This document shows positions 24,546 through 60,665 of a DNA stretch of 64,000 bases, piece by piece. Positions within the stretch are counted from its first letter, which is position 1. Every line of letters begins with the position of its first letter. This DNA is from Flavobacterium sp. CS20 (GTDB lineage Bacteria; Bacteroidota; Bacteroidia; Flavobacteriales; Flavobacteriaceae). The notes below the pieces were generated by a model. The model searched no databases. It saw only the letters and a program-made list of their open reading frames with translations, and was not told the origin of the DNA. Location: NCBI RefSeq assembly GCF_018080005.1, contig NZ_CP073015.1:2942501-3006500 (forward strand), written 5' to 3'. A program made the translations under genes and the position numbers.

Positions 24546-25247
24546 TCAGAAATTCGGACTAAGCTCGTATTTGTTGTAAAACTGATCTAAAATATCAATC
24601 ACTTCATCTTCATCATCTACAAGGTGAATCAAATCTAAGTCAATTGCATTTACCGTTGCAAATTCAGTCACCATTACTGATTTAATCCAATCAATAAGCC
24701 CAGACCAAAAGTCTTTGCCTACTAAAATAATAGGAAATTTATCAATTTTATGGGTTTGAATCAAGGTGATTGCTTCAAACAATTCGTCCATTGTGCCAAA
24801 ACCACCTGGCATAACAACAAAGCCTTGCGAATATTTAACAAACATCACTTTTCTGACAAAGAAATAATCAAACTCCAAATTTTTATCCTTATCAATATAC
24901 GGATTGTCGTGTTGCTCAAAAGGCAGTTCAATATTTAAACCTACAGAAGTTCCGCCACCAAGATGAGCACCTTTGTTGGCGGCTTCCATAATGCCTGGTC
25001 CGCCACCAGAAATGATACCATAACCTTGTTCAACGATTTTATTGGCAACTTTTACCGCTAATTCGTAATATGGGTTGTCAGGTTTCATCCGTGATGAACC
25101 AAAAATAGATACACATGGACCAATTTCAGACATCCGTTCATAACCATAAACAAATTCGCTCATAATTTTAAACAATGCCCAACTATCGTTGGTTTTGATT
25201 TCGTTCCAGTTTTTAAAGTGTTTATTTACCATAACTTCATTATTCAA
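24546..25247 (-). CDS. LOG family protein (TIGR00730; nucleoside 5'-monophosphate phosphoribohydrolase-like)
   Basis: A 233-residue Rossmann-like protein with the LOG signature: VSIFGSSRM, then GGPGIMEAANKGAHLGGG, then MPGGFGTMDELFEAITLIQT (PGGxGTxxE). Family members hydrolyse nucleoside monophosphates to base and ribose-5-phosphate; plant and actinobacterial members release cytokinins. Older annotations call it lysine decarboxylase, which is incorrect for this fold. It sits 9 bases after uvrA, in the uvrA-LOG-nuclease-M1-like operon. Confidence 0.88.
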   Translation of the reverse strand: MNNEVMVNKHFKNWNEIKTNDSWALFKIMSEFVYGYERMSEIGPCVSIFGSSRMKPDNPYYELAVKVANKIVEQGYGIISGGGPGIMEAANKGAHLGGGTSVGLNIELPFEQHDNPYIDKDKNLEFDYFFVRKVMFVKYSQGFVVMPGGFGTMDELFEAITLIQTHKIDKFPIILVGKDFWSGLIDWIKSVMVTEFATVNAIDLDLIHLVDDEDEVIDILDQFYNKYELSPNF

Positions 25248-47403: not shown

Positions 47404-48033
47404 ATGCCAAAAGTAACCACAGAATATCAGCATGGTGAGGCGAGGATTTTTAAAAATCCTTTTTTAGAAAGTTTGACCAAAACAAACCCTATTTCAAATA
47501 TTATTGTTTACGGTTTGAGTATTGCGTTGTTTACTTATTATGCAATAGCTAAAGTTGGTTTAGATCCCATAGTTTTTATTGGGCTTTTTGCCTTTGGAAT
47601 GTTATTTTGGACTTTTGCAGAATATTTGTTGCACAGGTATTTATTTCATTGGATAAATGATAATAAGTTCGTCCAGCGTTTTCATTTTATCATGCATGGT
47701 TCTCATCACAAATTTCCAAGAGACGAAGCAAGATTGCTCATGCCACCTGTGCCAGGTTTGATTATGGCAAGTTTGTTGTTCGGTTTGTTTTATCTCATAT
47801 TTTGGATATTTCAGATTCCAGATTTATGTTTTGGTTTTTTTCCTGGTTTTTTTTCTGGCTATTTGATGTATTCTTTTGTTCATCGTGCTATACATGTAAA
47901 TAAACCACCTAAACGGTTTAAACACATTTGGTTACATCACAACATCCACCATTTTAAATATCCCGATAAAGCTTTTGGCGTATCCAATACGTTTTGGGAT
48001 AAAGTTTTTGGAACGATGCCACCAAAAAAATAG
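47404..48033 (+). CDS. Fatty acid hydroxylase / sterol desaturase superfamily protein
   Basis: A 209-residue membrane di-iron enzyme with about four hydrophobic segments. Histidine clusters in order: HRYLFHW, HFIMHGSHHKFP, HRAIHV and HIWLHHNIHHFKYP, followed by FGVSNTFWDKVFG. This layout resembles fatty acid 2-hydroxylases of the Scs7/FA2H type. In Bacteroidetes a likely substrate is a sphingolipid or aminolipid acyl chain; that is inference. I start at MPKVTTEYQHGEARIF because the predicted promoter overlaps the earlier ATG at 47377. Confidence 0.8.
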   Translation: MPKVTTEYQHGEARIFKNPFLESLTKTNPISNIIVYGLSIALFTYYAIAKVGLDPIVFIGLFAFGMLFWTFAEYLLHRYLFHWINDNKFVQRFHFIMHGSHHKFPRDEARLLMPPVPGLIMASLLFGLFYLIFWIFQIPDLCFGFFPGFFSGYLMYSFVHRAIHVNKPPKRFKHIWLHHNIHHFKYPDKAFGVSNTFWDKVFGTMPPKK

Positions 48034-48077
48034 CACGCTTTATTTCATCTTTTTTTAGCATGTCTTATATTCGTTGA

Positions 48078-50183
48078 ATGCTTAGTCATCAACTCAACAC
48101 ACCAATTACCTACCTTAAAGGCGTAGGTCCTCAAAAAGCTAAAATTTTAGAGGAAGAACTCAGCATAAAAACTTATGCAGATTTAATTGAATATTTCCCG
48201 TTTAGATATATAGACAGAACTCAGTTTTACAAGATAAAAGATCTCAAAAATAGTCTTGCCGAAATTCAAATTGTTGGGGTTATTACAGAAATACGGATGG
48301 TTTCTCAACGCCGTGGCAAAAGGTTAGTAGCATCTTTTGAAGACCAAACAGGGCAAATGGAATTGGTGTGGTTTAAAAAACAAAAATGGATAAGAGAAAA
48401 TTTGAAGATAAATGCTCCCTACGTCATATTTGGAAAATTAAATTTCTTTAACGGTCAGTTTAGTATGATTCATCCAGAAATGGAGTTATATAAAGAATTT
48501 AAAAAAGATTTTAATGTAAAACTTCAACCGGTTTATTCTAGCACTGAAAAATTGACTAAGAACAACCTCGGCAATCGCTTTTTTAACAGAATGCTGAAGC
48601 AACTTTTTACTGAATTACAATCTCCGTTTCAAGAAATTTTACCACAAAATATTGTAGAAGAATTGAAATTAATTTCACCTTCGAAAGCCTATTTTAATAT
48701 CCATTTTCCACAATCTAATGAGCTTCTTTCAAAAGCTCAATTTAGACTGAAATGGGAAGAATTTTTCTTTATTCAATTGCAACTGGTAAGAAAGAATCTA
48801 TTTCATAAACATAAGATCAAAAGTTTTAAATTTAAGCAAATTGGAGATTATTTCAATACATTTTATAACAACATTCTCCCGTTTGAATTGACAAATGCTC
48901 AAAAAAAAGTCCTCAAACAAATTAGAAATGATTTAGGACGAACAGCTCACATGAACAGACTTTTACAAGGTGATGTGGGTTCAGGAAAAACCATCGTAGG
49001 ATTTATGAGCATGTTGATTGCCTTAGATAATGGATTTCAGACGTGTATGATGGCTCCGACTGAAATTTTAGCCAAACAACACTACCAAACTATTGCCGAA
49101 TATTGTGATCAACTTGGTATTAGTATTAGCCTTTTAACTGGTTCAACTACTGCCAAACAACGCAAAGATATTCATCAAAATCTTGAAAATGGCAACCTAC
49201 ATATTTTGGTCGGCACACATGCTTTGATTGAAGATAAAGTTAAATTTCATAACCTCGGTTTTGCTATTATAGACGAGCAACACCGCTTTGGCGTTGCTCA
49301 ACGGGCTAAATTATGGAAGAAAAACGATTTGCCACCCAATGTTTTGGTTATGACGGCTACGCCAATACCTAGAACTTTAGCGATGAGTTTGTATGGCGAT
49401 TTGGACATTTCAGTCATCGATGAGTTGCCACCTGGAAGAAAAACCGTTAAAACGGTTCACCGCTATGATGCCAATCGACTTAAAGTTTTTCAGTTTCTCA
49501 AAAATGAAATCTCCAAAGGTCGTCAAGTTTATATTGTTTATCCATTGATTGAAGAATCTGAAAATTTTGATTACAAAGATTTGATGGATGGTTATGAAAG
49601 TATATCAAGAGAGTTTCCTAAACCAAATTACCAAATTTCAATTGTTTACGGCAAAATGAAACCCGAAGACAAAGCGGCTGAAATGCAAAGATTTGTCAAT
49701 GGCGAAACTCAAATTATGGTGGCGACAACGGTTATAGAAGTTGGCGTTAATATACCAAATGCATCGGTAATGGTAATTGAAAGTGCAGAGCGTTTTGGTT
49801 TGTCACAACTACATCAATTGCGCGGTAGAGTTGGGCGAGGTGCTGAGCAAAGCTATTGTATTTTGATGACAGGTCACAAACTTAGCGACGATGCAAAAAC
49901 CCGACTACAAACAATGACCCAAACCAACGATGGATTTCAAATTGCGGAAGTTGATTTAAAACTACGTGATTCTGGTGATTTGATGGGAACGCAACAAAGC
50001 GGTTTACTCAATTTAAAAATAGCAGATGTTGTAAAAGACAGTAGCATTCTTGAAAGTGCAAGACATCACGCCATAAGGTTATTAAAAAAAGATCCTAACT
50101 TAGAAAAACCCGAACATACGCTTCTTAAAAAAGAATTCATAAAGCTTACACAAGATAAATTTAAGTGGAACTATATCAGTTGA
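48078..50183 (+). CDS. recG: ATP-dependent DNA helicase RecG
   Basis: A 701-residue SF2 helicase that reverses stalled forks and processes branched DNA. It has the N-terminal wedge/OB domain (about 1-200, with YLKGVGPQKAKILEEELSI and YFPFRYIDR), Walker A LLQGDVGSGKTIVG near residue 300, the DEQH box IIDEQHRFGVAQR, MTATPIPRT and QLRGRVGRG. Length is normal. Its 3' end overlaps the convergent gene at 50176 by eight bases. Confidence 0.97.
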   Translation: MLSHQLNTPITYLKGVGPQKAKILEEELSIKTYADLIEYFPFRYIDRTQFYKIKDLKNSLAEIQIVGVITEIRMVSQRRGKRLVASFEDQTGQMELVWFKKQKWIRENLKINAPYVIFGKLNFFNGQFSMIHPEMELYKEFKKDFNVKLQPVYSSTEKLTKNNLGNRFFNRMLKQLFTELQSPFQEILPQNIVEELKLISPSKAYFNIHFPQSNELLSKAQFRLKWEEFFFIQLQLVRKNLFHKHKIKSFKFKQIGDYFNTFYNNILPFELTNAQKKVLKQIRNDLGRTAHMNRLLQGDVGSGKTIVGFMSMLIALDNGFQTCMMAPTEILAKQHYQTIAEYCDQLGISISLLTGSTTAKQRKDIHQNLENGNLHILVGTHALIEDKVKFHNLGFAIIDEQHRFGVAQRAKLWKKNDLPPNVLVMTATPIPRTLAMSLYGDLDISVIDELPPGRKTVKTVHRYDANRLKVFQFLKNEISKGRQVYIVYPLIEESENFDYKDLMDGYESISREFPKPNYQISIVYGKMKPEDKAAEMQRFVNGETQIMVATTVIEVGVNIPNASVMVIESAERFGLSQLHQLRGRVGRGAEQSYCILMTGHKLSDDAKTRLQTMTQTNDGFQIAEVDLKLRDSGDLMGTQQSGLLNLKIADVVKDSSILESARHHAIRLLKKDPNLEKPEHTLLKKEFIKLTQDKFKWNYIS

Positions 50184-51111
50184 AATCAATGGTTTTTGTG
50201 GGTTTATCTTTCTCTTTTTCCAGCTCATCATCTTTCATATCTAAGTATTTATCCTCGTGAAATTGATCAAATCGATAAGACAAACCAATTCCTGCAAGCC
50301 AACGTTGAGGTGTGTCTTTAAAATTGATCAGCCCAAAAACATCCAATTGGAGGTCTTTATTAAATAAATATGCACCACCAGCTCTAATTAATTCATCACT
50401 GTAAAAATCACTGTTAGTAGTTTCAAATTCTCCAAAAATTGAATATCTTCTATTTAATGCGTGAGTTACTGTAAATATTCCACTATAACTCGGAAAATCA
50501 GTTTCAACTTTATCAGCTATAATGTTTATTACCAAAACTGTTCTATCGAGATTGCTTTGTGCAGATACTCCAAGTTTAGATGATATGTTAGGCTCATCTG
50601 GAAACATAAAAGGATTGTCACCGAACAGCAAATTGGCTCCAGCATAAACAGAAACGGCAGGTATCAAATCTTTCCATTGAAAACTATGATTAGCATGATA
50701 GCTATACAGATTTGGTCCTTCTTTTTGTCTTTTTTTGTGTGGATCGTAAACCAAGTATTTTGCACCGAGAGTATTGGTTTGAAAATCAGAAAATGAAAAA
50801 CTTTGGGTTATATTGCTTATCATATTAGTTTCATCAGCAAAAGCAAAACGACCTTCTAAAATGAGCTCGAGTTCTTCTAAAATTAAACCGTAACGAAGTG
50901 CATAATCGATAAAAAATAAATCTGTGTCCGTTTTAAGCAAATCGTGTTCGTCATTGCCCAGACCTATTCCACCTTCAACTTGTATCACATTTGTTCCTAC
51001 GCTATAGGCTCCAAAAGAAGCTCCAGGACGATTTGAGTTGATAGTTTCAGTGTATTGCCCAAAAAACAAATTAACACAAAGGAAACACAAAATTGAAAAT
51101 GTGGTTTTCAT
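50176..51111 (-). CDS. Outer-membrane transporter-like beta-barrel (MetA-pathway phenol degradation family)
   Basis: A 311-residue protein with a signal peptide (cut near FFGQ, residue 19) and a run of amphipathic beta strands. N-terminal INSNRPGASFGAYSVG and VEGGIGLG, and C-terminal WLAGIGLSYRFDQF, fit the Phenol_MetA_deg barrel family, whose members are generally uncharacterised. It has a charged Lys/Asp/Glu tail of about 30 residues after the last strand. It stands alone behind its own -7 element. Confidence 0.68.
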   Translation of the reverse strand: MKTTFSILCFLCVNLFFGQYTETINSNRPGASFGAYSVGTNVIQVEGGIGLGNDEHDLLKTDTDLFFIDYALRYGLILEELELILEGRFAFADETNMISNITQSFSFSDFQTNTLGAKYLVYDPHKKRQKEGPNLYSYHANHSFQWKDLIPAVSVYAGANLLFGDNPFMFPDEPNISSKLGVSAQSNLDRTVLVINIIADKVETDFPSYSGIFTVTHALNRRYSIFGEFETTNSDFYSDELIRAGGAYLFNKDLQLDVFGLINFKDTPQRWLAGIGLSYRFDQFHEDKYLDMKDDELEKEKDKPTKTIDFN

Positions 51112-51428
51112 AGCTTATTAAATTGGAAAACAAATGTATTAAAAATAAATCTTTAGAAGAATGTTTTTTTAATTTTAGCCTACTTTTAAAAGACTTCAAA
51201 TGTAATTGCGAAAATCATTAGGCATTTAAAAATTCTTACTGACCTTAATTCTATAAGGCTTGGGTATAGCAAAACATAGCAGAGCGGAAATCCTGAGAGC
51301 AATTATTCAACAGTTGTTTTTCGTGAGATTTGTCGTTTTGGGATTGCCGAATCACCAATTGTATAGATTTGTGTTGAAATCATAATGGATATTTATGAAA
51401 AATTTAATTCGATATAAAAACAGAAACT
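51112..51428. other. Intergenic region between the thiol dioxygenase operon and the MetA-like barrel gene
   Basis: A 317-base stretch without a credible gene. It holds the promoter element of the reverse barrel gene at its left end (51131-51138) and near its right end the string TTCGATATAAA, also present at 30290-30300 in the palindromic repeat element. No strong hairpin with a T run is seen for the operon that ends at 51429. Confidence 0.55.
51131..51138 (-). promoter_or_regulatory. -7 element of the MetA-like barrel gene
   Basis: Reverse strand TACATTTG, 19 bases upstream of the start codon at 51111; no TTG at the expected -33 distance. Confidence 0.4.
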
Positions 51429-52007
51429 TTAAGTTTTGTAGATAAAACCTGTACTGTCAATTTTTGAAAATGCTTCTTTGGGTTGATTCCAACTATAGGA
51501 AAAGGCTAAATCGCTCAAAGTGGCTATGATTCCTTTGTTTGGGTCAAATAAAACACTGCCGTTAAGGTTTTGAGATGGTGGATAATAAATGTGCATTGTG
51601 CATACGGTTTGCGTTTTTGATGTATTAAAAACTTGATGTATAGCGTCTTTGTTTTCGTAAATAATATCGTTTTCTCGATAGGTTTTAACAGATTTTCGTT
51701 CTAATAGTTTTTGATTATCATCAAATTTGTATTCGTGCTCTTCAATTTTACCATCTAAAACTTTAATGACGCCTTTAATGTTTTTGTGCTGATGAATACT
51801 TGAAGATACTGATGCTGGCCAAATCATTAAATAAGCGACTACAAAATCATTTAAAATCGGTATTCTGTGATAGCCTCTAGTGGTTTGATTGGCGTCAATC
51901 TTGTATCTTGAAACGTCAATATCTTCACTTTCAAGTATTTTAACTAAACTTGATTTGTTGACATCTTTCTCATTTAGATGAACTAATTTTTTAATTAAAT
52001 TGTGCAT
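51429..52007 (-). CDS. Cysteine dioxygenase-type thiol dioxygenase (cupin)
   Basis: A 192-residue cupin. The iron-binding residues of cysteine dioxygenase are in place: His72 and His74 in SSIHQHKNIKG and His124 in DAIHQVF. His139 and Tyr141 (MHIYYPP) match the Ser-His-Tyr region of mammalian CDO, with Thr137 for Ser. The crosslinking Cys of animal enzymes is replaced by Gly79, as is known for bacterial CDOs. It would oxidise cysteine, or a related thiol such as 3-mercaptopropionate, to a sulfinate. Its start overlaps the FAD protein gene by 17 bases. It is last in a four-gene reverse operon. Confidence 0.82.
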   Translation of the reverse strand: MHNLIKKLVHLNEKDVNKSSLVKILESEDIDVSRYKIDANQTTRGYHRIPILNDFVVAYLMIWPASVSSSIHQHKNIKGVIKVLDGKIEEHEYKFDDNQKLLERKSVKTYRENDIIYENKDAIHQVFNTSKTQTVCTMHIYYPPSQNLNGSVLFDPNKGIIATLSDLAFSYSWNQPKEAFSKIDSTGFIYKT

Positions 52008-53394
52008 AGCTTTTTTGTTTTTTTATTAATATATGAGATAATTCTAAAGCTTGATTTCTCAATTCGTTCACAGCTGTGCTTTCCCAAAGGTCTCCTTTTA
52101 AGTTTGGACCTATAGTAAAAATATGTTCGTTAATTTGACTGTTTTGATTTATGGTTTGATAGGTTGGTGTATGCGTTTTTATGCCCAGTTTAAAACGGTC
52201 TTGGCTTATGATTCCTTTTTGAAAACAGTGCTTTAAAAAATTGTTTTTGGTTTTAGATAAATCCAAACTTGGTCCTGTGCAATTGATTATTCTTGAAACG
52301 TTGATTGCCTTAAAATCGGCTTTAGCTTTATCGTAAAATTTGACATTGACTTGAGATTGATTTAAATCTATATCTGTAATCTGACCCGATATGACATTTA
52401 AAATACCATCGATTTTTAGTTGTTGAATTTTATCGTGTATTTGCAGTGGCAGTCTGTGTCTTGCAACACCCCAAAGATGTCTAAGCCGTCTTAAAAAAAT
52501 GAACTTTTCTTTATCGGAAAAACTCTGCCAAATGGATTGTGATTTTGACCTCAGAGAATCGACGATGACTTCAGCAGAAATACCAAGATTTCTCAGTTTT
52601 TTACGATGTTTATTGAACAAACTAAGAATATCTAACAAACTCATATCGTCTTTCAATTGATTGACAAAATCAGGGTAATCATAAACATTTTTTCGATGTG
52701 GAATCAGATTGAAACCGTTTGGCGAGATGGCATAAATTTGATTGTCAAACCCATTTTCTAAAAGACCAACCACGGTATCTACCATTGTTAGCCCATTACC
52801 AATAATCAAAACAGGTAGGTTTTTATCAATATTTGTAACCGATTGTTTTTGCCACGGATTTTGAAAGTATTTTGATGATTTTATAACTTCTTTAGATATA
52901 TATTTAGGATGTTTTGGAGCTAAATTGCCAGTTGCTATTACGCATTGGTCAACTTCAAGAATTTGTTTATTGTCAAGTTTTAATTTTATTATCTCATTTT
53001 CATTTTCTAAATCTTCAACTGTATGGTTGATATGAGTTATTTTTACATGAGGATTTGTAGAGTAAGATTCATAAATGCTACATAAATAATCTCCATAAAT
53101 TTGTCTAGGCAAGAAAGACTCTGCTATCAAATTTTCGTTTGTATTTGGAAAAATATTTTGCTTGATTACCCAATTCAAAAAATGATTTGGTTCTTTAGGA
53201 AAAGCACTCATCTTTTTAGTTTTCACATTAAGAAGATGATGTTTTGAATAAGAATTGTAGGCTGTGCCTTTTGCTAAATTTTGTTGTTTATCCATAAGAT
53301 AAATGCGAGTTTCTCTATGCGAATTTTTAGCCAAATGAATGGCTGTCATCATTCCTGAGAAACCTGCTCCTATGACGCCAATTTTTTTCATCAT
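51991..53394 (-). CDS. FAD/NAD(P)-binding protein (NAD_binding_9-like)
   Basis: A 467-residue flavoprotein. The N-terminal dinucleotide fold is IGVIGAGFSGMMTAIHLA (about 3-20), then GTAYNSYSKHHLLNVKTKKM with an AFPKEPNHF loop, typical of the FAD-NAD(P)-binding family PF13454. A second site is PVLIIGNGLTMVDTVVGLL, and VIATGNLAPKHP is an ATG-like FAD motif. The C-terminus has GPNLKGDLWESTAVNELRNQ. The reaction is unknown; relatives include amine or ornithine hydroxylase-like enzymes. Co-transcription with the thiol dioxygenase points to a role in thiol or sulfinate oxidation; this is inference. Confidence 0.78.
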   Translation of the reverse strand: MMKKIGVIGAGFSGMMTAIHLAKNSHRETRIYLMDKQQNLAKGTAYNSYSKHHLLNVKTKKMSAFPKEPNHFLNWVIKQNIFPNTNENLIAESFLPRQIYGDYLCSIYESYSTNPHVKITHINHTVEDLENENEIIKLKLDNKQILEVDQCVIATGNLAPKHPKYISKEVIKSSKYFQNPWQKQSVTNIDKNLPVLIIGNGLTMVDTVVGLLENGFDNQIYAISPNGFNLIPHRKNVYDYPDFVNQLKDDMSLLDILSLFNKHRKKLRNLGISAEVIVDSLRSKSQSIWQSFSDKEKFIFLRRLRHLWGVARHRLPLQIHDKIQQLKIDGILNVISGQITDIDLNQSQVNVKFYDKAKADFKAINVSRIINCTGPSLDLSKTKNNFLKHCFQKGIISQDRFKLGIKTHTPTYQTINQNSQINEHIFTIGPNLKGDLWESTAVNELRNQALELSHILIKKQKSYAQFN

Positions 53395-53401
53395 CTATTT
53401 T

Positions 53402-54265
53402 TTATAAAAATAAAGCTTTTATTAAGGTATATGATGAGGTTAAAATAATCATACAACCTACAATAATCATCATTGATTTATGGGGTATTTTTTTAGTGAT
53501 GATAGCTCCGATTGGTGCAGCTAATGTACCGCCAATGATTAAACCGAGAATAATTTGCCAACTCTGTATTCCTGTAAAATAAATTAAAATTCCTGCACTA
53601 AAAAAAGTGACAAAAAACTCTGCGGTATTTACAGTGCCAATCACGATGTTTGGCGTATTGCCTTGTCTAATCAGGTTTGAAGTAACAATTGGACCCCAAC
53701 CACCACCACCTATAGCATCAAGAAACCCACCAAATAAAGCATAAACAGGTGCAAACTTGAGGTTTTCCTTAATTTTAGGTTTCTTTTTAAAAACTTTTGA
53801 CAAGATAAAAACACCTAAAATGATAAGATATGCCGCAATAAATGGTTTTATCACTTTACCTTCAATAATAGAGCCTAATAAAAATGCACCAGCACTTGCT
53901 GAAATAACTCCTGGAACAAAAAGATTTAAAAATAATTTTAAGTCAAAATTACCTACTCTAATGTGAGATAAGCCTGAAACTCCTGTGGTAAAGACTTCAG
54001 CCGTATGAACCGTCGCTGAAGCCAGTCTCGGTGACAGACCAAAACCTAACAATACTGAATTTGAAGTGACGCCATAAGCCATACCTAAAGCACCATCGAC
54101 CATTTGGGCAAGAAAACCAGCCAAAAGAAACCAAAAGAAAGTAGAATCAAACAGCAAATCTGATTCTGAAGCTTTTGGTAAATAGACACTTAGAATTAAA
54201 ACAATAAGCAAAATTTTAAGTGTGATGATGGCTATAGAAACGTGAATGGTTTTGATCTTTTTCAT
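53402..54265 (-). CDS. Sulfite exporter TauE/SafE family (TSUP) permease
   Basis: A 287-residue membrane protein with about eight hydrophobic helices. The family hallmarks are the N-terminal LAGFLAQMVDGALGMAYG and the internal repeat FGGFLDAIGGGGWGPIV. Members export sulfite, sulfoacetate or related organosulfur anions, or take up sulfur compounds. Seven bases separate it from the FAD gene downstream and twelve from the DUF2490 gene upstream, so it is tightly part of the operon. With a thiol dioxygenase in the operon, sulfite or sulfinate efflux is the natural reading. Confidence 0.88.
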   Translation of the reverse strand: MKKIKTIHVSIAIITLKILLIVLILSVYLPKASESDLLFDSTFFWFLLAGFLAQMVDGALGMAYGVTSNSVLLGFGLSPRLASATVHTAEVFTTGVSGLSHIRVGNFDLKLFLNLFVPGVISASAGAFLLGSIIEGKVIKPFIAAYLIILGVFILSKVFKKKPKIKENLKFAPVYALFGGFLDAIGGGGWGPIVTSNLIRQGNTPNIVIGTVNTAEFFVTFFSAGILIYFTGIQSWQIILGLIIGGTLAAPIGAIITKKIPHKSMMIIVGCMIILTSSYTLIKALFL

Positions 54266-54277
54266 AAATGATATGAA

Positions 54278-55003
54278 TTAAGTATTAAATAAATTGAGTT
54301 TGTGCCTAAAAGTCAATCTGACAATGTTTCGGTTGAAGTAATCTACACCCGAACTGCGTTGTTGAAACCAATTGAAGTAGCCTAATTCAACACCAAAGTT
54401 GTTTGTTAAATTATATAGAATACTTCCGCCAATTCGGTTTTGATCAAACGTGTTGAGTACAACATCATCTCCAAAGTTGAGATGAATTTCATCAAATAAC
54501 TTTAAAATCATTTTTTCTGTCACATTATATCTCACTTCTATTTTGTATCGAACTCTTAGATTTCTGTATTCAAAAGAATCTTCGGGTTGTTCCATAAATC
54601 TGAATTCATTCCAATACCGATGATGAAGTGAAAACTTGGGAGAAAGAGTTTGCTTATAACTTAAACCCAACTGTGGTCTAAGTTCTGTTCTGTTGTTGGT
54701 GTCTTCAATATTTGGGTCGTGAGGTAAAGTTTGAAGAAAATAAGTAAAACCCACTTCGGCTTTCCAACCTTTGCCCAGTTTTCTCTCAAGCCGTGTTCTT
54801 GATAAAAATTGATGCTGACGCCAAGGAAACCAAAACACTCTTTCTTCAAATTCTTGGTTGATTCCATAGCTTTCGTTGATGTCTGATTTGAGATAATATC
54901 TTGTCCAATATAAACTTTGGGTTTCAACGTGTTTTTGAGCTGAGACTTGTGTTGAAAAACAAATTATTATCAAAACGAATAAAATTTTATACCACCTAAG
55001 CAT
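54278..55003 (-). CDS. DUF2490 outer-membrane beta-barrel protein
   Basis: A 241-residue protein with a signal peptide (cut after VSA, residue 22) and strongly alternating beta strands throughout (FEERVFWFPWRQHQFLSRTR, LGLSYKQTLSPKFSLHHRYW, and the end LTFRHKLNLF). It matches the DUF2490 family of uncharacterised small outer-membrane barrels. It is the first structural gene of the sulfur operon and could form the outer-membrane pore for the compound moved by the TSUP permease; that is inference. Confidence 0.78.
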   Translation of the reverse strand: MLRWYKILFVLIIICFSTQVSAQKHVETQSLYWTRYYLKSDINESYGINQEFEERVFWFPWRQHQFLSRTRLERKLGKGWKAEVGFTYFLQTLPHDPNIEDTNNRTELRPQLGLSYKQTLSPKFSLHHRYWNEFRFMEQPEDSFEYRNLRVRYKIEVRYNVTEKMILKLFDEIHLNFGDDVVLNTFDQNRIGGSILYNLTNNFGVELGYFNWFQQRSSGVDYFNRNIVRLTFRHKLNLFNT

Positions 55004-55040
55004 TAACTTTTTTTATGCAATAATATTAAAACATACAATA

Positions 55041-55057
55041 CCTACCAAATTAATAGG
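55041..55057. promoter_or_regulatory. Candidate operator between Rrf2 regulator and DUF2490 gene
   Basis: CCTACCAAATTAATAGG has CCTA/TAGG ends in the 71-base gap between the regulator gene and the operon. It is a plausible Rrf2-type site by position only; the arms are short. Confidence 0.3.
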
Positions 55058-55074
55058 ATTTAAAAATAAAAAAA

Positions 55075-55500
55075 TTATTTGTTTTTTTCTCTTTCGACAA
55101 TACTGGTAAGTGTTGCAGATTTTAATTGTTGAACCGTTGTATTTCTAATTTCCATCACCACTTGTCTAATGCCACAGGTTTCTTCGTCAATACATTCTTC
55201 ACATTTTTCGTAATAGTTGTAAGTCACGCAAGGCAAAAGAGCAATAGCACCGTCAAAAAGTCTTACAATTTTTGCTAAATTGATTTTGTCAGGACTTTCA
55301 TTTAAAAGATAACCACCATATTTTCCTTTTTTGCTTCTAAGAATTCGTGCATTTCTCAACTCCGTCAGAATAGTTTCTAAAAATTTGAGAGGAATATTTT
55401 GATTTTCAGAAATATCTGATGCTGCAACAGGTTGATTGTCAATATTTTTAGCTATATAGACTAAGGCATTGATGGCGTATTTTGTTTTTTTTGAAAGCAT
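55075..55500 (-). CDS. Rrf2 family transcriptional regulator with cysteine cluster
   Basis: A 141-residue regulator with an N-terminal winged helix (MLSKKTKYAINALVYIA, then AASDISENQNIPLKFLETIL and LRSKKGKYGGYLL, typical Rrf2). Four cysteines follow in the sensor loop: Cys91, Cys100, Cys103 and Cys109 (LPCVTYNYYEKCEEC, then TCGI), like the Fe-S ligands of IscR and NsrR. It lies just upstream of the DUF2490-TSUP-FAD-dioxygenase genes and probably controls them in response to cysteine, sulfide, NO or Fe-S status. The signal cannot be told from sequence. Confidence 0.88.
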   Translation of the reverse strand: MLSKKTKYAINALVYIAKNIDNQPVAASDISENQNIPLKFLETILTELRNARILRSKKGKYGGYLLNESPDKINLAKIVRLFDGAIALLPCVTYNYYEKCEECIDEETCGIRQVVMEIRNTTVQQLKSATLTSIVEREKNK

Positions 55501-55540
55501 TTAAAATATTTCCTGTTGTAATGAATTAAATTTGAATAAC

Positions 55541-55548
55541 CAAACATA
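55541..55548 (-). promoter_or_regulatory. -7 element upstream of the Rrf2 regulator
   Basis: Reverse strand TATGTTTG, 40 bases before the Rrf2 start. No TTG in the usual -33 window. Confidence 0.4.
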
Positions 55549-55681
55549 CTAAATCAAGCTCAAATATTCCCATTTTAAAATATTCAAATTTAACTATTAT
55601 TGATTCTAAACTACATTTTTAAAGTTTACAGTTTTAAAAAAATGCTCTACATTTATGCTTTACTTTAATTACAGTTAATTA

Positions 55682-56272
55682 ATGACAAATCTAAAGTTAG
55701 TATTGGTTTCTTTACTTATGACATTTTCAATTAATGTTTCAAATGCACAACAGTTTGTTGAAAGTTATGACGGCACACCAAATTTAGAGCGACATCAAGT
55801 GACTTTTAATTATTTTGGTCCTGGATTTCGTTATGAATTGGGTTTATTCAAAAACTTAAGTATTTCTTCAAGTTTTACTCCAGGGCTTGCATTTTATGAA
55901 GAAGGCTATGCCTTTGGTTATGTATGGCATACCAGGACACGGTTTTATATTAATTTTGAAAAGCGCTACAATAAAGAAAAAAACATAAGCTATAATTCAG
56001 CAGATTATCTCGCTGTTGCACGAAGTGTTTTTTGGGAACCTTTAACTTTTAGCCACAATCTTGATGATGAAGGACAGTTTAGTTTAGTCTTTTGGGGTGG
56101 TGTTTATGGTATTCAACGAACAAATGAAAAAGGGTTAAATTATAATTTAGAATTTGGTATTGGTTATTATGAAGGTATTGGTGTAGAAGGCGGATATGGA
56201 CCGTTGTTTAATTTTACTTTTGGTTGGGTAGCGACGAACAGAAAAAAGAAAAAGGTACATAAGTTAAATTGA
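55682..56272 (+). CDS. Hypothetical outer-membrane beta-barrel protein
   Basis: A 196-residue protein with a signal peptide (cut after SNA, residue 22). The rest has aromatic-rich alternating strands with paired Gly (YFGPGFRYELGLFKNLSIS, YGIQRTNEKGLNYNLEFGIG, PLFNFTFGWVATNRKKKK), as in small outer-membrane barrels. The basic tail after the last strand is unusual. I do not recognise a specific family. It is divergent from the Rrf2 gene and could be under its control. Confidence 0.55.
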   Translation: MTNLKLVLVSLLMTFSINVSNAQQFVESYDGTPNLERHQVTFNYFGPGFRYELGLFKNLSISSSFTPGLAFYEEGYAFGYVWHTRTRFYINFEKRYNKEKNISYNSADYLAVARSVFWEPLTFSHNLDDEGQFSLVFWGGVYGIQRTNEKGLNYNLEFGIGYYEGIGVEGGYGPLFNFTFGWVATNRKKKKVHKLN

Positions 56273-56288
56273 AAAACCAAAAACATTT

Positions 56289-56375
56289 TTACTTCAAATA
56301 TCGCTTTTCACGCAACCACTCATCATTATACATTTTGTCGACATAACGGCTCTTGAGATAAAAAAGATAATGACT
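56289..56375 (-). pseudogene. Remnant of a second cystathionine beta-synthase-like C-terminus
   Basis: On the reverse strand this reads SRYVDKMYNDEWLREKRYLK and stop, against SRYVGKMYNDEWMKEKGYLE at the end of the intact gene at 57178. The DNA is about 75 percent identical by eye over some 60 bases, including a 21-base identical block ending at about 56335. Upstream, similarity fades (HYLFYLKSRYV against VVLFHDHGSRYV) and stops appear. The remnant lies in the same orientation as the intact gene, about 890 bases away, with the toxin-antitoxin pair in between. Confidence 0.8.
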
Positions 56376-56453
56376 GAGATTTATCCATTAAGGTTTAAAA
56401 AGAAATTGTCTATAAAGAAGAGAATACAATTTCCGTTGTGTGATTAAATCAAC

Positions 56454-56477
56454 TATATTTGTATAACACTCTGTTAT
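56454..56477 (+). promoter_or_regulatory. Promoter and operator of the toxin-antitoxin operon
   Basis: TATATTTG (56454-56461) is a -7 element, with TTG at 56436-56438 (15-base spacer, slightly short). It is followed at once by an inverted repeat ATAACA-CTC-TGTTAT (56463-56477), as expected for autoregulation by a ribbon-helix-helix antitoxin. An AGGTGA ribosome-binding site at 56490-56495 is unusually good for this phylum. Confidence 0.5.
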
Positions 56478-56499
56478 TAATAATTAAATAGGTGATATT

Positions 56500-56727
56500 A
56501 TGGCAACAAAAATTCAAACAGCTGTTAGGCTAAACAAAGATTTAATTGAAGTTTTAAAAGAAAAAGCAAAGGCAGATAATAGAAGTCTGAACAATTATAT
56601 TGAAAAATTGTTATACCAAGATGTTGGTCATATACCTAATCAGGCAACCAAATCAGCTATTGAAGAAGCTCAAAATAGTAATCTGGAGAGAGTTGAAGAC
56701 CTTGATGATTGGTTGGAAAAATTGTAA
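56500..56727 (+). CDS. RHH-type antitoxin of a type II toxin-antitoxin system
   Basis: A 75-residue protein with an N-terminal ribbon-helix-helix pattern (KIQTAVRLNKDLIEVLKEKA, then NRSLNNYIEKLL) and an acidic C-terminus (ERVEDLDDWLEKL) of the kind that wraps around RelE/YafQ toxins. It should repress its own promoter through the inverted repeat at 56463-56477. It is followed three bases later by the toxin gene. A visible Shine-Dalgarno sequence (AGGTGA) sets it apart from neighbouring genes and hints at acquisition by transfer. Confidence 0.8.
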   Translation: MATKIQTAVRLNKDLIEVLKEKAKADNRSLNNYIEKLLYQDVGHIPNQATKSAIEEAQNSNLERVEDLDDWLEKL

Positions 56728-56730
56728 AAG

Positions 56731-57013
56731 ATGTATCATTTAGAGCCAACTACTCGGTTTACAAAAGATTTAAAAAAAAATAAAAAAGTTAGAAAAGAAC
56801 TGCACTGCTCATGTGAATGTGTTGAAAAAACTTCAAAAAGGAGGTCTTTCTGAAATCCCAAAAACAATGCGACCTCATCGACTGAAAGGCGTTTATAAAA
56901 ACAATTGGGAATGTCATATTAAACCAGATTTATTGATCATTTGGTTTCAAATTGATAAGCATCAAGTGATACGATTAATCCGAATCGGTTCACATTCAGA
57001 ATTGTTTCAATAA
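56731..57013 (+). pseudogene. YafQ/RelE-family mRNA interferase toxin, frameshifted in an A9 tract
   Basis: The ATG at 56731 begins MYHLEPTTRFTKDLKK, the usual YafQ-type N-terminus, but the frame continues KNKKVRKELHCSCE and stops early. Deleting one A from the nine-A run (56772-56780) restores KKIKKLEKNCTAHVNVLKKL, then the conserved HRLKGVYKNNWECHIKPDLL and RIGSHSELF end, about 93 residues in total. Catalytic-type residues (His near HRLKGVY, His and Asp of ECHIKPD, His of GSHSELF) are present in the restored frame. The break may be a true loss, slippage-based switching, or a homopolymer sequencing error. Confidence 0.75.
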
Positions 57014-57144
57014 AATAATTTATTTATAAACTAAGTTCACTTTTGGCGTTTTAGTTTCCACCACAGATTCACAGATACCTTAGATTTAGTTGTTGAAGCC
57101 AATCTTTATCAAAGCAAAAATCATTACAAATAACCTCATAACCC

Positions 57145-57166
57145 TTATAAGTTTTTAAACTTATAA
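57145..57166. repeat. Perfect inverted repeat downstream of CBS and toxin genes
   Basis: TTATAAGTTT-TT-AAACTTATAA, with two 10-base arms, between the convergent toxin and CBS genes. It lacks a T run on either side, so its role as a terminator is doubtful. Just upstream (57061-57076) is CCACAGATTCACAGAT, a string I recall from other Bacteroidetes intergenic regions. Confidence 0.45.
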
Positions 57167-57177
57167 CCGCAAAAAAA

Positions 57178-58158
57178 CTACTCCAAATACCCTTTTTCCT
57201 TCATCCACTCATCATTATACATTTTACCGACATATCGACTGCCATGGTCGTGAAAGAGGACAACGACTACATCATCTTTTTTGAAATGTTCTTTTAGTTG
57301 AAGCAAGCCTTTAACCGTCGCTCCAGCAGAATTTCCGAGAAACATTCCTTCTTCTTTTGCCAGTTTTCGCGTGTAAATTGCCGCATCTTTATCGGTGACT
57401 TTAGTAAAACCATCAATGATTTCAAAACGCACATTTTTAGGGAGAATATCTTCGCCAATGCCTTCGGTAACGTAGGGATAAATTTCATTTTCGTCAAAAA
57501 TTCCCGTCTCGTGATATTTTTTAAACACCGAGCCATACGTATCAATTCCCCAAACTTTAATATTTGGATTTTTTAATTTAAGATAACTACCAACACCTGA
57601 AATAGTTCCGCCTGTACCAACACCAACAACAAAATGCGTGATTTTGCCATCGGTTTGTTCCCAAATTTCTGGTCCAGTGGTTTTGAAATGAGCTTTACAA
57701 TTAGACGGATTATCATATTGATTGACATACCAAGAGTTTGGTGTTTCTCTTGCTAATCTTGCTGAAGTAGAATAATAAGACTCTGGGTCGTCTGGTGCAA
57801 CGTCTGTTGGACAAACGTGGACTTCACATCCAACGGCTTTGAGAATATTCATTTTTTCTTGGCTTTGCTTGTCACTCAGCACGCAAATCACTTTATAGCC
57901 TTTCACTATGGCGACTAAAGCTAAACCCATTCCTGTATTGCCTGAAGTACCTTCAATGATTGTGCCGCCAGGTTTGAGACGACCATCGGCTTCGGCGTCT
58001 TCTATCATTTGTAAAGCCATGCGGTCTTTAACAGAGTTACCTGGGTTAAAGGTTTCGTATTTGCCTAAAACTAAAGCATCAATATCTGATACAATAGTAT
58101 TGAGCTTGACTAAAGGCGTATTTCCAATCGTTTCTAAGATATTTTTGGCGTATTGCAT
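57178..58158 (-). CDS. Cystathionine beta-synthase / cysteine synthase-like PLP enzyme
   Basis: A 326-residue fold-type II PLP enzyme. The PLP lysine is Lys44 in NPGNSVKDRMA. The phosphate-binding loops are EGTSGNTGMG and GVGTGGTISG, and the serine site is in the C-terminal GNSAGATVKG. The C-terminus FHDHGSRYVGKMYNDEWM is more typical of CBS cores than of CysK. It lacks the regulatory CBS domain pair. It would make cystathionine from serine and homocysteine or cysteine from activated serine; the exact reaction is uncertain. A second decayed C-terminus lies at 56289. Confidence 0.88.
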   Translation of the reverse strand: MQYAKNILETIGNTPLVKLNTIVSDIDALVLGKYETFNPGNSVKDRMALQMIEDAEADGRLKPGGTIIEGTSGNTGMGLALVAIVKGYKVICVLSDKQSQEKMNILKAVGCEVHVCPTDVAPDDPESYYSTSARLARETPNSWYVNQYDNPSNCKAHFKTTGPEIWEQTDGKITHFVVGVGTGGTISGVGSYLKLKNPNIKVWGIDTYGSVFKKYHETGIFDENEIYPYVTEGIGEDILPKNVRFEIIDGFTKVTDKDAAIYTRKLAKEEGMFLGNSAGATVKGLLQLKEHFKKDDVVVVLFHDHGSRYVGKMYNDEWMKEKGYLE

Positions 58159-58175
58159 AATCTCATTTTGATTTG

Positions 58176-58183
58176 CAAAAGTA
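58176..58183 (-). promoter_or_regulatory. -7 element of the CBS-like gene
   Basis: Reverse strand TACTTTTG, 17 bases before the ATG at 58158. No TTG at the expected -33 position. Confidence 0.4.
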
Positions 58184-58231
58184 TAAGAAATTAATGTTTT
58201 GAAGCTTTAAAATGAATAAAACAAGAAAATT

Positions 58232-59494
58232 TTAATCAAACTTTATAGCCTTGACAGGCGAAATTTTTGTGATGATATAAGAAGGCAGTAAAAGCATGAG
58301 AAGGCAAACAAGAATTGTGCCGAGATTGATGCCTAACAAATAAGTCCAGTCAATGTAAACTGGGGCATGAGTAACATAATAAGTTTCTGGATTAAGACTG
58401 ATTATTTTTCCATTTTTTTGAAGGAGCAGTAACCCAATTCCAATTAGGTTTCCCCAAAACAAGCCTTTTAAAATTAAATAGGTAGCATTGTAAAGAAATA
58501 TTTTTCTGATGCTAAAATTTTGACAGCCTAAAGCTTTTAAAATCCCAACAAGCTGGGTTTGTTCTAAAATTAAAACCAACAAAGCCGTAATCATATTGAT
58601 ACCTGCAATGATGACCATAATGATGACGATTAACGCAATATTGACATCAAAAAGTGCAATCCATTCAAAAATGGTAGGATATTGACTAACTATAGTTGTG
58701 GCATTGAGAAAAGAACCTATGTTTTCATACACCTGTATTCCTGTTTGTTGGATGTCATCAAAATCTGAAACCATGAGTTCAAATTGACCAATTTGGTAAT
58801 CTTCCCATTTGTTGAGGCGTTGAATTTGTTTGATATCAGTCATCAAAAATTGCTTGTCAAACTCTAAAAAACCTGAATTGTAAATTCCCACAATATCAAA
58901 AGCTACCAATCTTGGTCGGTCGTTGTCTTTATCTTTTAAGAAATAAACAATAACCTTATCGCCCAACTCAAAACCAAGTCGATCAGCAAGATATTCAGAA
59001 ATCATAATTTCTTTGCTGATATTTTCAGTCAGGTTTAGTTTTCTGCCTTCAACGATAAATTCATCAAAAAAAGACCAATCGTAATCTGTAGAAACACCTT
59101 TAACCACAATACCTTCAAAATCATTTTCGGTGCGGATGACGCCGTATTTTGAAGCGGTTTTTTGGACGTGAGTTATTTCAGGAACACTTTCAAATTTGGG
59201 ATAAAAATCCTGTCTCGCATCAATAGGTTGTAAGTTTTGATTAGATTGATTACTCGTAAAACTTCTGATGGTGATATGCCCGTTGAAAGCGGTAATTTTA
59301 TCTCTGATTTTTTGTTGTAAACCTAAACCAGTACCAAAAGCTAAAATCATCATGATGATGCCAATACTTATGGCAGTTACAGCAATTTTTATTATTGGGG
59401 AAGAAACCTTACTTTTATAGCCTTTGGTTTTAATCAGCTTTTTCGATATGAAATATTCAAAATTCAATTTGTTCGCTCTGTTTTTCAGGTTCAA
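58232..59494 (-). CDS. LolC/LolE-like ABC transporter permease (FtsX domain)
   Basis: A 420-residue permease with an N-terminal helix (about 33-55: IIKIAVTAISIGIIMMILAF), a large periplasmic domain (about 60-265) and three C-terminal helices (about 275-300, 325-350 and 375-405), the MacB/FtsX layout. It resembles LolC/LolE, which release lipoproteins for transfer to the outer membrane; the matching ATPase is not adjacent. A TTG at 59467 (giving MNFEYFISKKL) fits the family N-terminus better than the ATG at 59494, which would overlap the divergent namZ gene by 47 bases. Confidence 0.85.
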   Translation of the reverse strand: MNLKNRANKLNFEYFISKKLIKTKGYKSKVSSPIIKIAVTAISIGIIMMILAFGTGLGLQQKIRDKITAFNGHITIRSFTSNQSNQNLQPIDARQDFYPKFESVPEITHVQKTASKYGVIRTENDFEGIVVKGVSTDYDWSFFDEFIVEGRKLNLTENISKEIMISEYLADRLGFELGDKVIVYFLKDKDNDRPRLVAFDIVGIYNSGFLEFDKQFLMTDIKQIQRLNKWEDYQIGQFELMVSDFDDIQQTGIQVYENIGSFLNATTIVSQYPTIFEWIALFDVNIALIVIIMVIIAGINMITALLVLILEQTQLVGILKALGCQNFSIRKIFLYNATYLILKGLFWGNLIGIGLLLLQKNGKIISLNPETYYVTHAPVYIDWTYLLGINLGTILVCLLMLLLPSYIITKISPVKAIKFD

Positions 59495-60665
59495 AAATAC
59501 AGTTTTATTTAGTTTGTTTTTGATTTTAGCCTGTCAAGCTCAAGATAAATCTTCTAACGAGCAGAAATTGTTGACTGGTGCTGACCAAACTGAAAAATAT
59601 GTGAACGATTTAAGACAAAAAAACATCGCTATTGTTGCCAATCAAACTTCTGTCATTAAAAATAATAGAGATGGTTATACACATCTCGTCGATTCGCTTT
59701 TAAGTCTTAATATCAATATAAAAAAAGTATTTGCACCCGAACACGGATTTCGTGGTCAAGCTGATGCAGGTGAAAAAGTTGATGATGCTATCGATGCTAA
59801 AACAGGGTTATCGATTATTTCACTTTATGCTAGTCATAAAAAACCAACAGAAACCGATTTGAAAGGAATTGATATGTTGGTTTTTGATATCCAAGATGTT
59901 GGCGTGCGGTTTTATACGTATATTTCTACTTTACATTATGTCATGGAAGCTTGTGCAGAGCAAGATATTCCTTTGATAGTTTTGGATCGACCAAATCCCA
60001 ACCGACATTATGTTGATGGACCTGTTTTAGAAAAAGCACATCAAAGCTTTGTTGGTATGCATCCTGTGCCAATAGTTTATGGTTTAACGATTGGTGAATA
60101 TGCTCAAATGATCAATGGAGAACAATGGCTTAAAAATCAAGTCAAGTGTGAATTAAAAATTGTGCCTTTAAAAAATTACGATACTAAAAAAAACTATAAA
60201 TTGCCTATAAAACCATCGCCTAATTTACATAGCACATTATCAATAAATTTATATCCGAGTTTATGTTTTTTTGAAGGCACAAATGTCAATGCAGGTCGAG
60301 GCACATCAACACCTTTTCAAGTGTTTGGATCGCCGTTTTTAGATCGAGAAAAATATGATTTTCAGTATGTTCCTGAGCCTAATCTAGGTTCAAAATACCC
60401 TAAACATCAAGGCAAAATTTGCTATGGAATGGATTTAACTTCACATCAATTTTTATCAGAAATTCATTTAGTTTGGCTGATTGAAGCCTATCAAAACACA
60501 TCAAATCAAGATGATTTTTTTAATTCCTTTTTCACAAAATTAGCAGGCACAACACAACTTCAAAACCAAATTGAAAAAGGAATGAGTAGCATAGAAATCA
60601 AAGCGACCTGGCAAAAAGATATAGATGATTTTAAAAAACTGAAGAAGCAATATCATTTGTATTAA
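59448..60665 (+). CDS. NamZ-like exo-beta-N-acetylmuramidase (DUF1343) lipoprotein
   Basis: A 405-residue lipoprotein with the signal FSLFLILAC (lipobox Cys near residue 27). It then has the DUF1343 domain with VFAPEHGFRGQADAGEKVDD, DMLVFDIQDVGVRFYTYIS, LDRPNPN and FEGTNVNAGRGTSTPFQVFG. This family, now GH171, removes terminal MurNAc from peptidoglycan fragments and works in cell-wall recycling. I take the ATG at 59448, since the one at 59424 lies further inside the divergent permease gene. It probably acts in the periplasm attached to a membrane. Confidence 0.9.
   Translation: MKYSKFNLFALFFRFKNTVLFSLFLILACQAQDKSSNEQKLLTGADQTEKYVNDLRQKNIAIVANQTSVIKNNRDGYTHLVDSLLSLNINIKKVFAPEHGFRGQADAGEKVDDAIDAKTGLSIISLYASHKKPTETDLKGIDMLVFDIQDVGVRFYTYISTLHYVMEACAEQDIPLIVLDRPNPNRHYVDGPVLEKAHQSFVGMHPVPIVYGLTIGEYAQMINGEQWLKNQVKCELKIVPLKNYDTKKNYKLPIKPSPNLHSTLSINLYPSLCFFEGTNVNAGRGTSTPFQVFGSPFLDREKYDFQYVPEPNLGSKYPKHQGKICYGMDLTSHQFLSEIHLVWLIEAYQNTSNQDDFFNSFFTKLAGTTQLQNQIEKGMSSIEIKATWQKDIDDFKKLKKQYHLY

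Follow-up and report, generated by a model that had tools for sequence, protein, structure and literature searches.

The window analysed here is a stretch of 64,000 nucleotides (nt) from Flavobacterium sp. CS20 (contig NZ_CP073015.1), in which five reverse-strand genes form a real, compact, and operon-like sulfur module, every part of which comes from a known family. The first gene encodes an Rrf2 regulator with four cysteines (55075–55500; PF02082, 121.7 bits). Behind it are packed the genes of a DUF2490 protein (54278–55003; PF10677, 96 bits), a TSUP (TauE/SafE) permease (53402–54265; PF01925, 123 bits), an FAD/NAD(P)-binding protein with a class B N-monooxygenase-like fold (51991–53394; NAD_binding_9, 117 bits), and a cysteine dioxygenase (CDO)-type cupin (51429–52007; PF05995 CDO_I, 66.4 bits against a cut-off of 23). 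All five proteins exceed their Pfam cut-offs. The gap between the Rrf2 and DUF2490 genes is 71 nt, those between DUF2490 and TSUP and between TSUP and FAD are 12 and 7 nt, and the CDO gene overlaps the FAD gene by 17 nt. A predicted Rrf2 operator, CCTACCAAATTAATAGG, lies at 55041–55057 (no strand assigned; scored as the 29-mer 55035–55063), and the DUF2490 gene is the first gene downstream of it. The component families are known; it is the regulatory evidence that is new.

Matches to the Rrf2 regulator at an E value of at most 1e-15 are present in 209 of 299 genomes of the same bacterial family, mostly one in each. The surroundings of 18 such family loci, mainly high-ranking matches, were fetched and their domains scanned with one representative per group. 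A CysH-type (PAPS-reductase-domain) gene lies near the Rrf2 orthologue in 15 of them, and the usual order beside the regulator is DUF2061, CysH, a second PAPS-reductase-domain protein, a GTPase, sulfite reductase, and a tetrapyrrole methylase; from knowledge of these families, we take the second PAPS-reductase-domain protein to be of the CysD type and the GTPase to be of the CysN type. The window cysteines (C91, C100, C103, and C109) are arranged as C-x8-C-x2-C-x5-C, and 29 of 30 loci, counting that of the window, have the same spacing. Judged by sequence, the window Rrf2 is the orthologue of the regulator that stands beside the sulfate-assimilation operon of the family. In another genome of the genus (G174), the gene next to Rrf2 encodes a permease in which CitMHS, TrkA_C, and Na_sulph_symp domains are recognised. 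The nine genes scanned at 50176–59494 include no sulfate-assimilation genes, the rest of the genome not having been searched for them.

Most of these loci share the dyad CCTA-N9-TAGG, which occurs 17 times in the 18 Rrf2 loci plus the window, while no other spacing (4–15) occurs more than twice. It is present in 14 of the 18 loci, each of which is also one of the 15 that have a CysH-type gene nearby; in 13 of these 14 it sits in the gap next to Rrf2, and in L129 at a distance of about 0.9 kb. In nine of the 14, its near edge is 9–24 nt from the called DUF2061 start. The fifteenth CysH-type locus (L124) carries a weaker variant; the exact word is missing from L122 and L138, the gap after Rrf2 in L122 holding a weak look-alike of 8.8 bits, and the L131 contig stops 182 nt past Rrf2. 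The window dyad stands between Rrf2 and the four-gene operon, with 38 nt separating its near edge from the ATG of the downstream DUF2490 gene. In a matrix built from the 14 sites with the window site left out, 55035–55063 receives the top score in the whole 64 kb, 27.7 bits, followed by 17.7 bits at 24712; the maximum in ten random 64-kb sequences was 14.1 bits. Ten of 13 family loci outside the matrix score 18.8–33.4 bits, and the top sites of all 13 are situated 21–152 nt after the Rrf2 match. The dyad conserved in the family, a predicted operator, stands directly before DUF2490-TSUP-FAD-CDO, and regulation of the operon by the sulfur-assimilation Rrf2, which we regard as very likely, is the best-supported step of the mechanism.

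Two other candidate elements deserve mention. The second-best matrix site (24712–24740) falls within the gene of a LOG-type (Lysine_decarbox) protein and is possibly a chance match. Upstream of the Rrf2 gene there is a perfect 13-nt inverted repeat (55526–55538 and 55581–55593, 42 nt apart), which was considered as an operator and dropped in favour of the dyad because in 19 regions upstream of Rrf2 genes the most frequent 8-mers are AT-rich and none occurs in more than six of the 19. A scan for sigma-70 promoters and terminators gave a result no better than that for shuffled sequences.

The cupin retains the iron ligands H72, H74, and H124, as well as R48, the Arg60-type carboxylate-binding residue, and all four are conserved without exception among 18 aligned CDO proteins. 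The Ser-His-Tyr motif corresponds to Thr137, His139, and Tyr141, with Thr in place of Ser, and Gly79 occupies the position of mammalian Cys93. The protein is classed as a member of the Arg-type cysteine dioxygenase family (the Arg-type and Gln-type thiol dioxygenases are distinguished in PMC8050391). Its substrate is reasonably likely to be cysteine or a close analogue.

The FAD protein resembles class B flavin N-monooxygenases in its fold, the nearest being the aspartate N-hydroxylase FzmM, over 445 residues, and it shows the three-domain arrangement with FAD and NADPH sites. Its N56, invariant in 47 aligned FAD proteins, aligns with the catalytic Asn62 of FzmM; the role that an Asn, Asp, or Glu above the flavin plays in this class is described in PMC10404684. 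Ser13 aligns with the aspartate-binding Arg13 of FzmM. Four arginines (R282, R312, R314, and R446) are likewise invariant in the alignment of the 47 proteins. A TAL-effector match in the PDB proved to be an artefact of repeats scoring about 2 bits each. The protein is plausibly a second oxidation step, and a monooxygenase is slightly favoured over a reductase. As to the remaining two proteins, TSUP has no PDB match by sequence and DUF2490 no convincing one; Pfam gives the DUF2490 family no function, and the protein is probably an outer-membrane protein, the barrel being a reading of the preliminary description. That description, made from the letters of this DNA, had the coordinates, strands, and spacing of the four packed genes and the upstream four-cysteine Rrf2 right, as well as the three iron-binding histidines; its view of a sulfur module with a thiol-dioxygenase fold is borne out by the operon-like layout and the cysteine-type residues, and its proposal of the FAD protein as a further oxidation step gains plausibility from the fold and the invariant catalytic-type Asn.

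Distant homologues of the FAD protein were followed on plasmids, in 21 records from 20 genera (one per genus, save two for Nostoc) drawn among the matches listed, which comprise 80 rows and 25 genera out of 557 matching records; Azospirillum, Caballeronia, and Niveispirillum (no usable annotated gene), as well as Kozakia and Acetobacter, were left out. Sulfonate, sulfate, sulfone, or cysteine genes lie within 6 kb of the homologue in 13 of the 20 genera: Nostoc, Acidisoma, Aureimonas, Streptomyces, Pantoea, Sphingobium, Rhizobium, Pararhizobium (cysE only), Sinorhizobium (SfnB), Chimaeribacter, Komagataeibacter, Agrobacterium (SfnB), and Klebsiella. The ssuD gene directly precedes the FAD gene in Aureimonas (with a 4-nt overlap), Pantoea, Komagataeibacter, and Klebsiella; in Streptomyces, the FAD gene is preceded by cysC, cysD, and sulfonate-transport genes, and in Rhizobium, it adjoins taurine-transport genes. 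Six control stretches of 26.6 kb from six counted records contained no such sulfur gene; a generic TauD/TfdA-family gene, an LLM-class oxidoreductase, and an Rrf2 gene were seen there and left uncounted, one stretch consisted mostly of hypothetical proteins, and this small set is, like the contexts themselves, not random. Rrf2 genes near the FAD homologue in Acidisoma, Haematobacter, and Sinorhizobium have the same four-cysteine spacing as the window regulator, which is common rather than specific since an unlinked Aureimonas Rrf2 protein has it as well. Behind the nearest homologue with a context (53% identity, genome G730) comes a gene for APS kinase. On a Nostoc plasmid (L062, 5962–8247), the FAD/NAD(P) part is fused to an ETHE1-type persulfide dioxygenase domain (match to 4chl at 1.1e-62), and 115 of 120 listed relatives of this fusion combine NAD_binding_9 with Lactamase_B, the list being biased to close relatives, many of them from Nostoc. 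The fusion gene adjoins an ssu operon, and such fusions are found in several cyanobacterial genera.

In its own genus, the module is isolated. Among 27 genomes compared, the window genome included, neither the FAD protein (E ≤ 1e-10) nor TSUP (E ≤ 1e-5) has a match in the other 26. The FAD protein is matched at E ≤ 1e-3 in five of 199 genomes of a family sample (the four others at no more than 29% identity) and in 22 of 395 of a phylum sample (the others at no more than 30%, except for short pieces of 33 and 36%), and at E ≤ 1e-30 in four of 395 of an order sample, namely its own genome, G730, and two at 28–29%; these samples overlap. In the genus of G730, it is found in that genome alone (one of 23). 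Some CDO occurs in 20 of the 27 genus genomes, the window genome counted, and no CDO match was obtained in the four genomes nearest by RecG (G928, G918, G935, and G932, with 81–90% RecG identity) or on plasmids. The window CDO is unusual: a word-based protein search with 64 candidates gave three relatives besides the protein itself (83, 79, and 47% identity), and it shares 18–22% identity with 14 ordinary CDOs of its own family (17 other family loci minus three without a matching reading frame). An alignment scan of genome contigs for CDO yielded one weak locus (L027, 36% over 45 residues), in whose reading frames none of nine window proteins matches at E ≤ 1e-3. Downstream, the module is bounded by a flanking PF13557 gene (50176–51111, reverse strand), which is adjacent to RecG in two of four relatives examined (L070 and L072). 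Since the module thus sits beside genes of the genus, it was probably gained by the window lineage. An attempt to read an empty site from the relatives' chromosomes failed, as their genes are ordered differently or their contigs stop at this point. No clear island stands out in GC content (28–38% across 48000–60000), and no mobile element was noticed at the module, although no detailed search for one was made.

Because the orthologous Rrf2 and its dyad mark the sulfate-assimilation operon of the family, the module is read here as belonging to the sulfur-assimilation regulon and not to thiol export, and the frequent location of FAD homologues in sulfonate and sulfate loci is a further pointer to sulfur supply. 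Taken together, this suggests a role in supply rather than in the disposal of excess thiols; the leading explanation as a whole, a probably acquired accessory operon placed in the Rrf2-controlled regulon and working as outlined next, has in our estimate about even odds. In the mechanism proposed, Rrf2 would leave its predicted site when cysteine or iron–sulfur (Fe–S) supply is low, and a sulfur anion (an organosulfur compound or sulfite) would cross the envelope via DUF2490 and TSUP. The FAD protein would be a class B monooxygenase that uses NAD(P)H to oxidise a small anionic sulfur compound, and the CDO-type enzyme would turn a thiol resembling cysteine into a sulfinate that can release sulfite, the net outcome being the salvage of sulfur from an organic source. 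A bolder version, which we consider speculative and rather improbable, makes the NAD_binding_9 flavoprotein a member of a widespread but unrecognised branch of class B monooxygenases, one that oxidises small amino-sulfur anions for sulfur acquisition. Its substrate in this operon would be the CDO product, and N- or S-oxidation would open a new route from a cysteine-like thiol to free sulfite; the CDO product is proposed because cysteine sulfinate is isosteric with aspartate, on which the nearest solved relative acts.

Several observations weigh against the assignment to sulfur assimilation. The exact dyad word occurs three times in the window (8839, 24718, and 55041), so the bare word is unspecific, and the matrix is more specific. 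Three of the 13 test loci score low (5.3, 7.3, and 9.4 bits), as does G174, whose top site of 11.4 bits is 192 nt after Rrf2 and within the next gene; among the 30 loci scored, G1005 is also low (7.3 bits, 78 nt after Rrf2), and G047 and G003 have no site. Matrix and test loci, which comprise the top 30 Rrf2 matches plus a small number of further ones, are related members of a single family and hence not independent. Seven of the 20 plasmid genera have no annotated sulfur gene near the FAD homologue: Gluconobacter (with a SLAC1 transporter), Methylomagnum, Sphingomonas, Paracoccus, Lichenicola, Shinella, and Haematobacter, where an Rrf2 gene adjoins a homologue matched over 45% of the query. 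The homologues beside sulfur genes are only about 21–32% identical to the window protein, and no CDO or TSUP homologue is found in 19 kb around the FAD gene of G730. No second copy of the complete five-gene set was found in the genomes sampled, a lack of conservation that the preliminary description had itself named as refuting its model; two near CDO relatives on short contigs (3,999 and 2,974 bases) lie outside that sample. The awkward point is that a cysteine-destroying enzyme should not be derepressed under cysteine shortage. Either the CDO acts on something other than free cysteine or the regulator behaves differently in this operon; the misfit favours a salvaged thiol as the substrate or another signal, such as O2 or the Fe–S state.

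For the same reason, the model of the preliminary description stays alive, in which an excess of cysteine or of some other thiol is converted by oxidation to a sulfinate or sulfonate that TSUP and DUF2490 carry out across both membranes. It agrees with the CDO residues and with the name "sulfite exporter" of the TSUP family, and a cysteine-destroying enzyme suits excess better than shortage. However, the predicted operator and the orthology of Rrf2 group the operon with sulfate assimilation and many FAD homologues sit in acquisition loci, which makes export unlikely, though not negligible. Sulfide or persulfide detoxification, where the FAD protein would make or handle a persulfide, the cupin would replace a persulfide dioxygenase, and TSUP would export sulfite, has in its favour the cyanobacterial fusion to the ETHE1-type domain. 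It is less probable still, as a metallo-beta-lactamase dioxygenase is absent from the five genes, the cupin retains the cysteine-type Arg, and the 47 aligned FAD proteins lack a conserved redox-cysteine pair, C372 being their only invariant cysteine; SQR and thioredoxin reductase carry such a pair. Least probable of all is the synthesis of an oxidised sulfur metabolite (cysteate, a taurine-like compound, or a sulfonolipid precursor) aided by the pyridoxal phosphate (PLP) enzyme at 57178–58158: its highest-scoring NCBIfam model is CysteaSynCapA (cysteate synthase) and an ordinary CDO gene adjoins a PLP decarboxylase gene in G174, but the 456 bits fall below the 600-bit cut-off, and the enzyme is not tied to the module since 24 of the 25 genus genomes (of 27) with a copy at 86% identity or more are without FAD and TSUP. 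The same enzyme scores 416 bits with the cystathionine beta-synthase model (cut-off 510), and 24 of the 27 genus genomes have two matches to it, the second at 52–57%. The two G174 genes (L060, 7772–9759) are divergent, and the decarboxylase could yield hypotaurine from cysteine sulfinate.

The reading as sulfur salvage provides a testable regulon, through the Rrf2 site predicted to control sulfur assimilation in this family of bacteria, and gives a clue to the function of the large "FAD/NAD(P)-binding protein" family. Neither the combination of genes nor a role for the NAD_binding_9 flavoprotein was found in the literature searched, in which subscription journals are poorly covered. FAD genes near sulfur genes occur in Cyanobacteriota, Actinomycetota, Pseudomonadota, and Bacteroidota (in the last, in the window and, as homologue names suggest, in G730). 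If the flavoprotein oxidises sulfinates or sulfonates, it would fill a missing step in organosulfur use.

Among known systems, the Rrf2-DUF2061-CysH-CysD-CysN-sulfite reductase-SUMT operon of the family has in common with the window the orthologous regulator, its four-cysteine pattern, and the regulator-adjacent dyad, while behind the dyad the window has DUF2490-TSUP-FAD-CDO instead of the assimilation enzymes. CymR, the repressor of cysteine metabolism in Gram-positive bacteria, shares the Rrf2 fold and sulfur genes as likely targets; the CymR model, however, gives the window protein 74 bits against a cut-off of 195, and by that model it is not an orthologue. Rat CDO and Bacillus subtilis YubC have the fold, the three histidines, and the equivalents of R48, H139, and Y141, which we take to be Arg60, His155, and Tyr157 in rat numbering; the window protein differs from the rat enzyme in having Gly79 for Cys93 and Thr137 for Ser153, with 26% identity in the structural alignment. 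The class B N-monooxygenases FzmM, SidA, and PvdA share with the FAD protein the fold, the FAD and NAD(P) motifs, and the catalytic-type Asn, whereas Tyr46 and Ser13 replace Trp51 and Arg13 of FzmM. Finally, the YdhS-like FAD/NAD(P)-binding proteins of sulfonate and sulfate loci, together with the cyanobacterial fusion, share with it the Pfam family, most of the length, and sulfur neighbours, as well as, in three records, a nearby Rrf2 gene; they are about 21–32% identical to it, and their partners are SsuD, SfnB, CysDNC, or a persulfide dioxygenase, whereas the partner in the window is a CDO.

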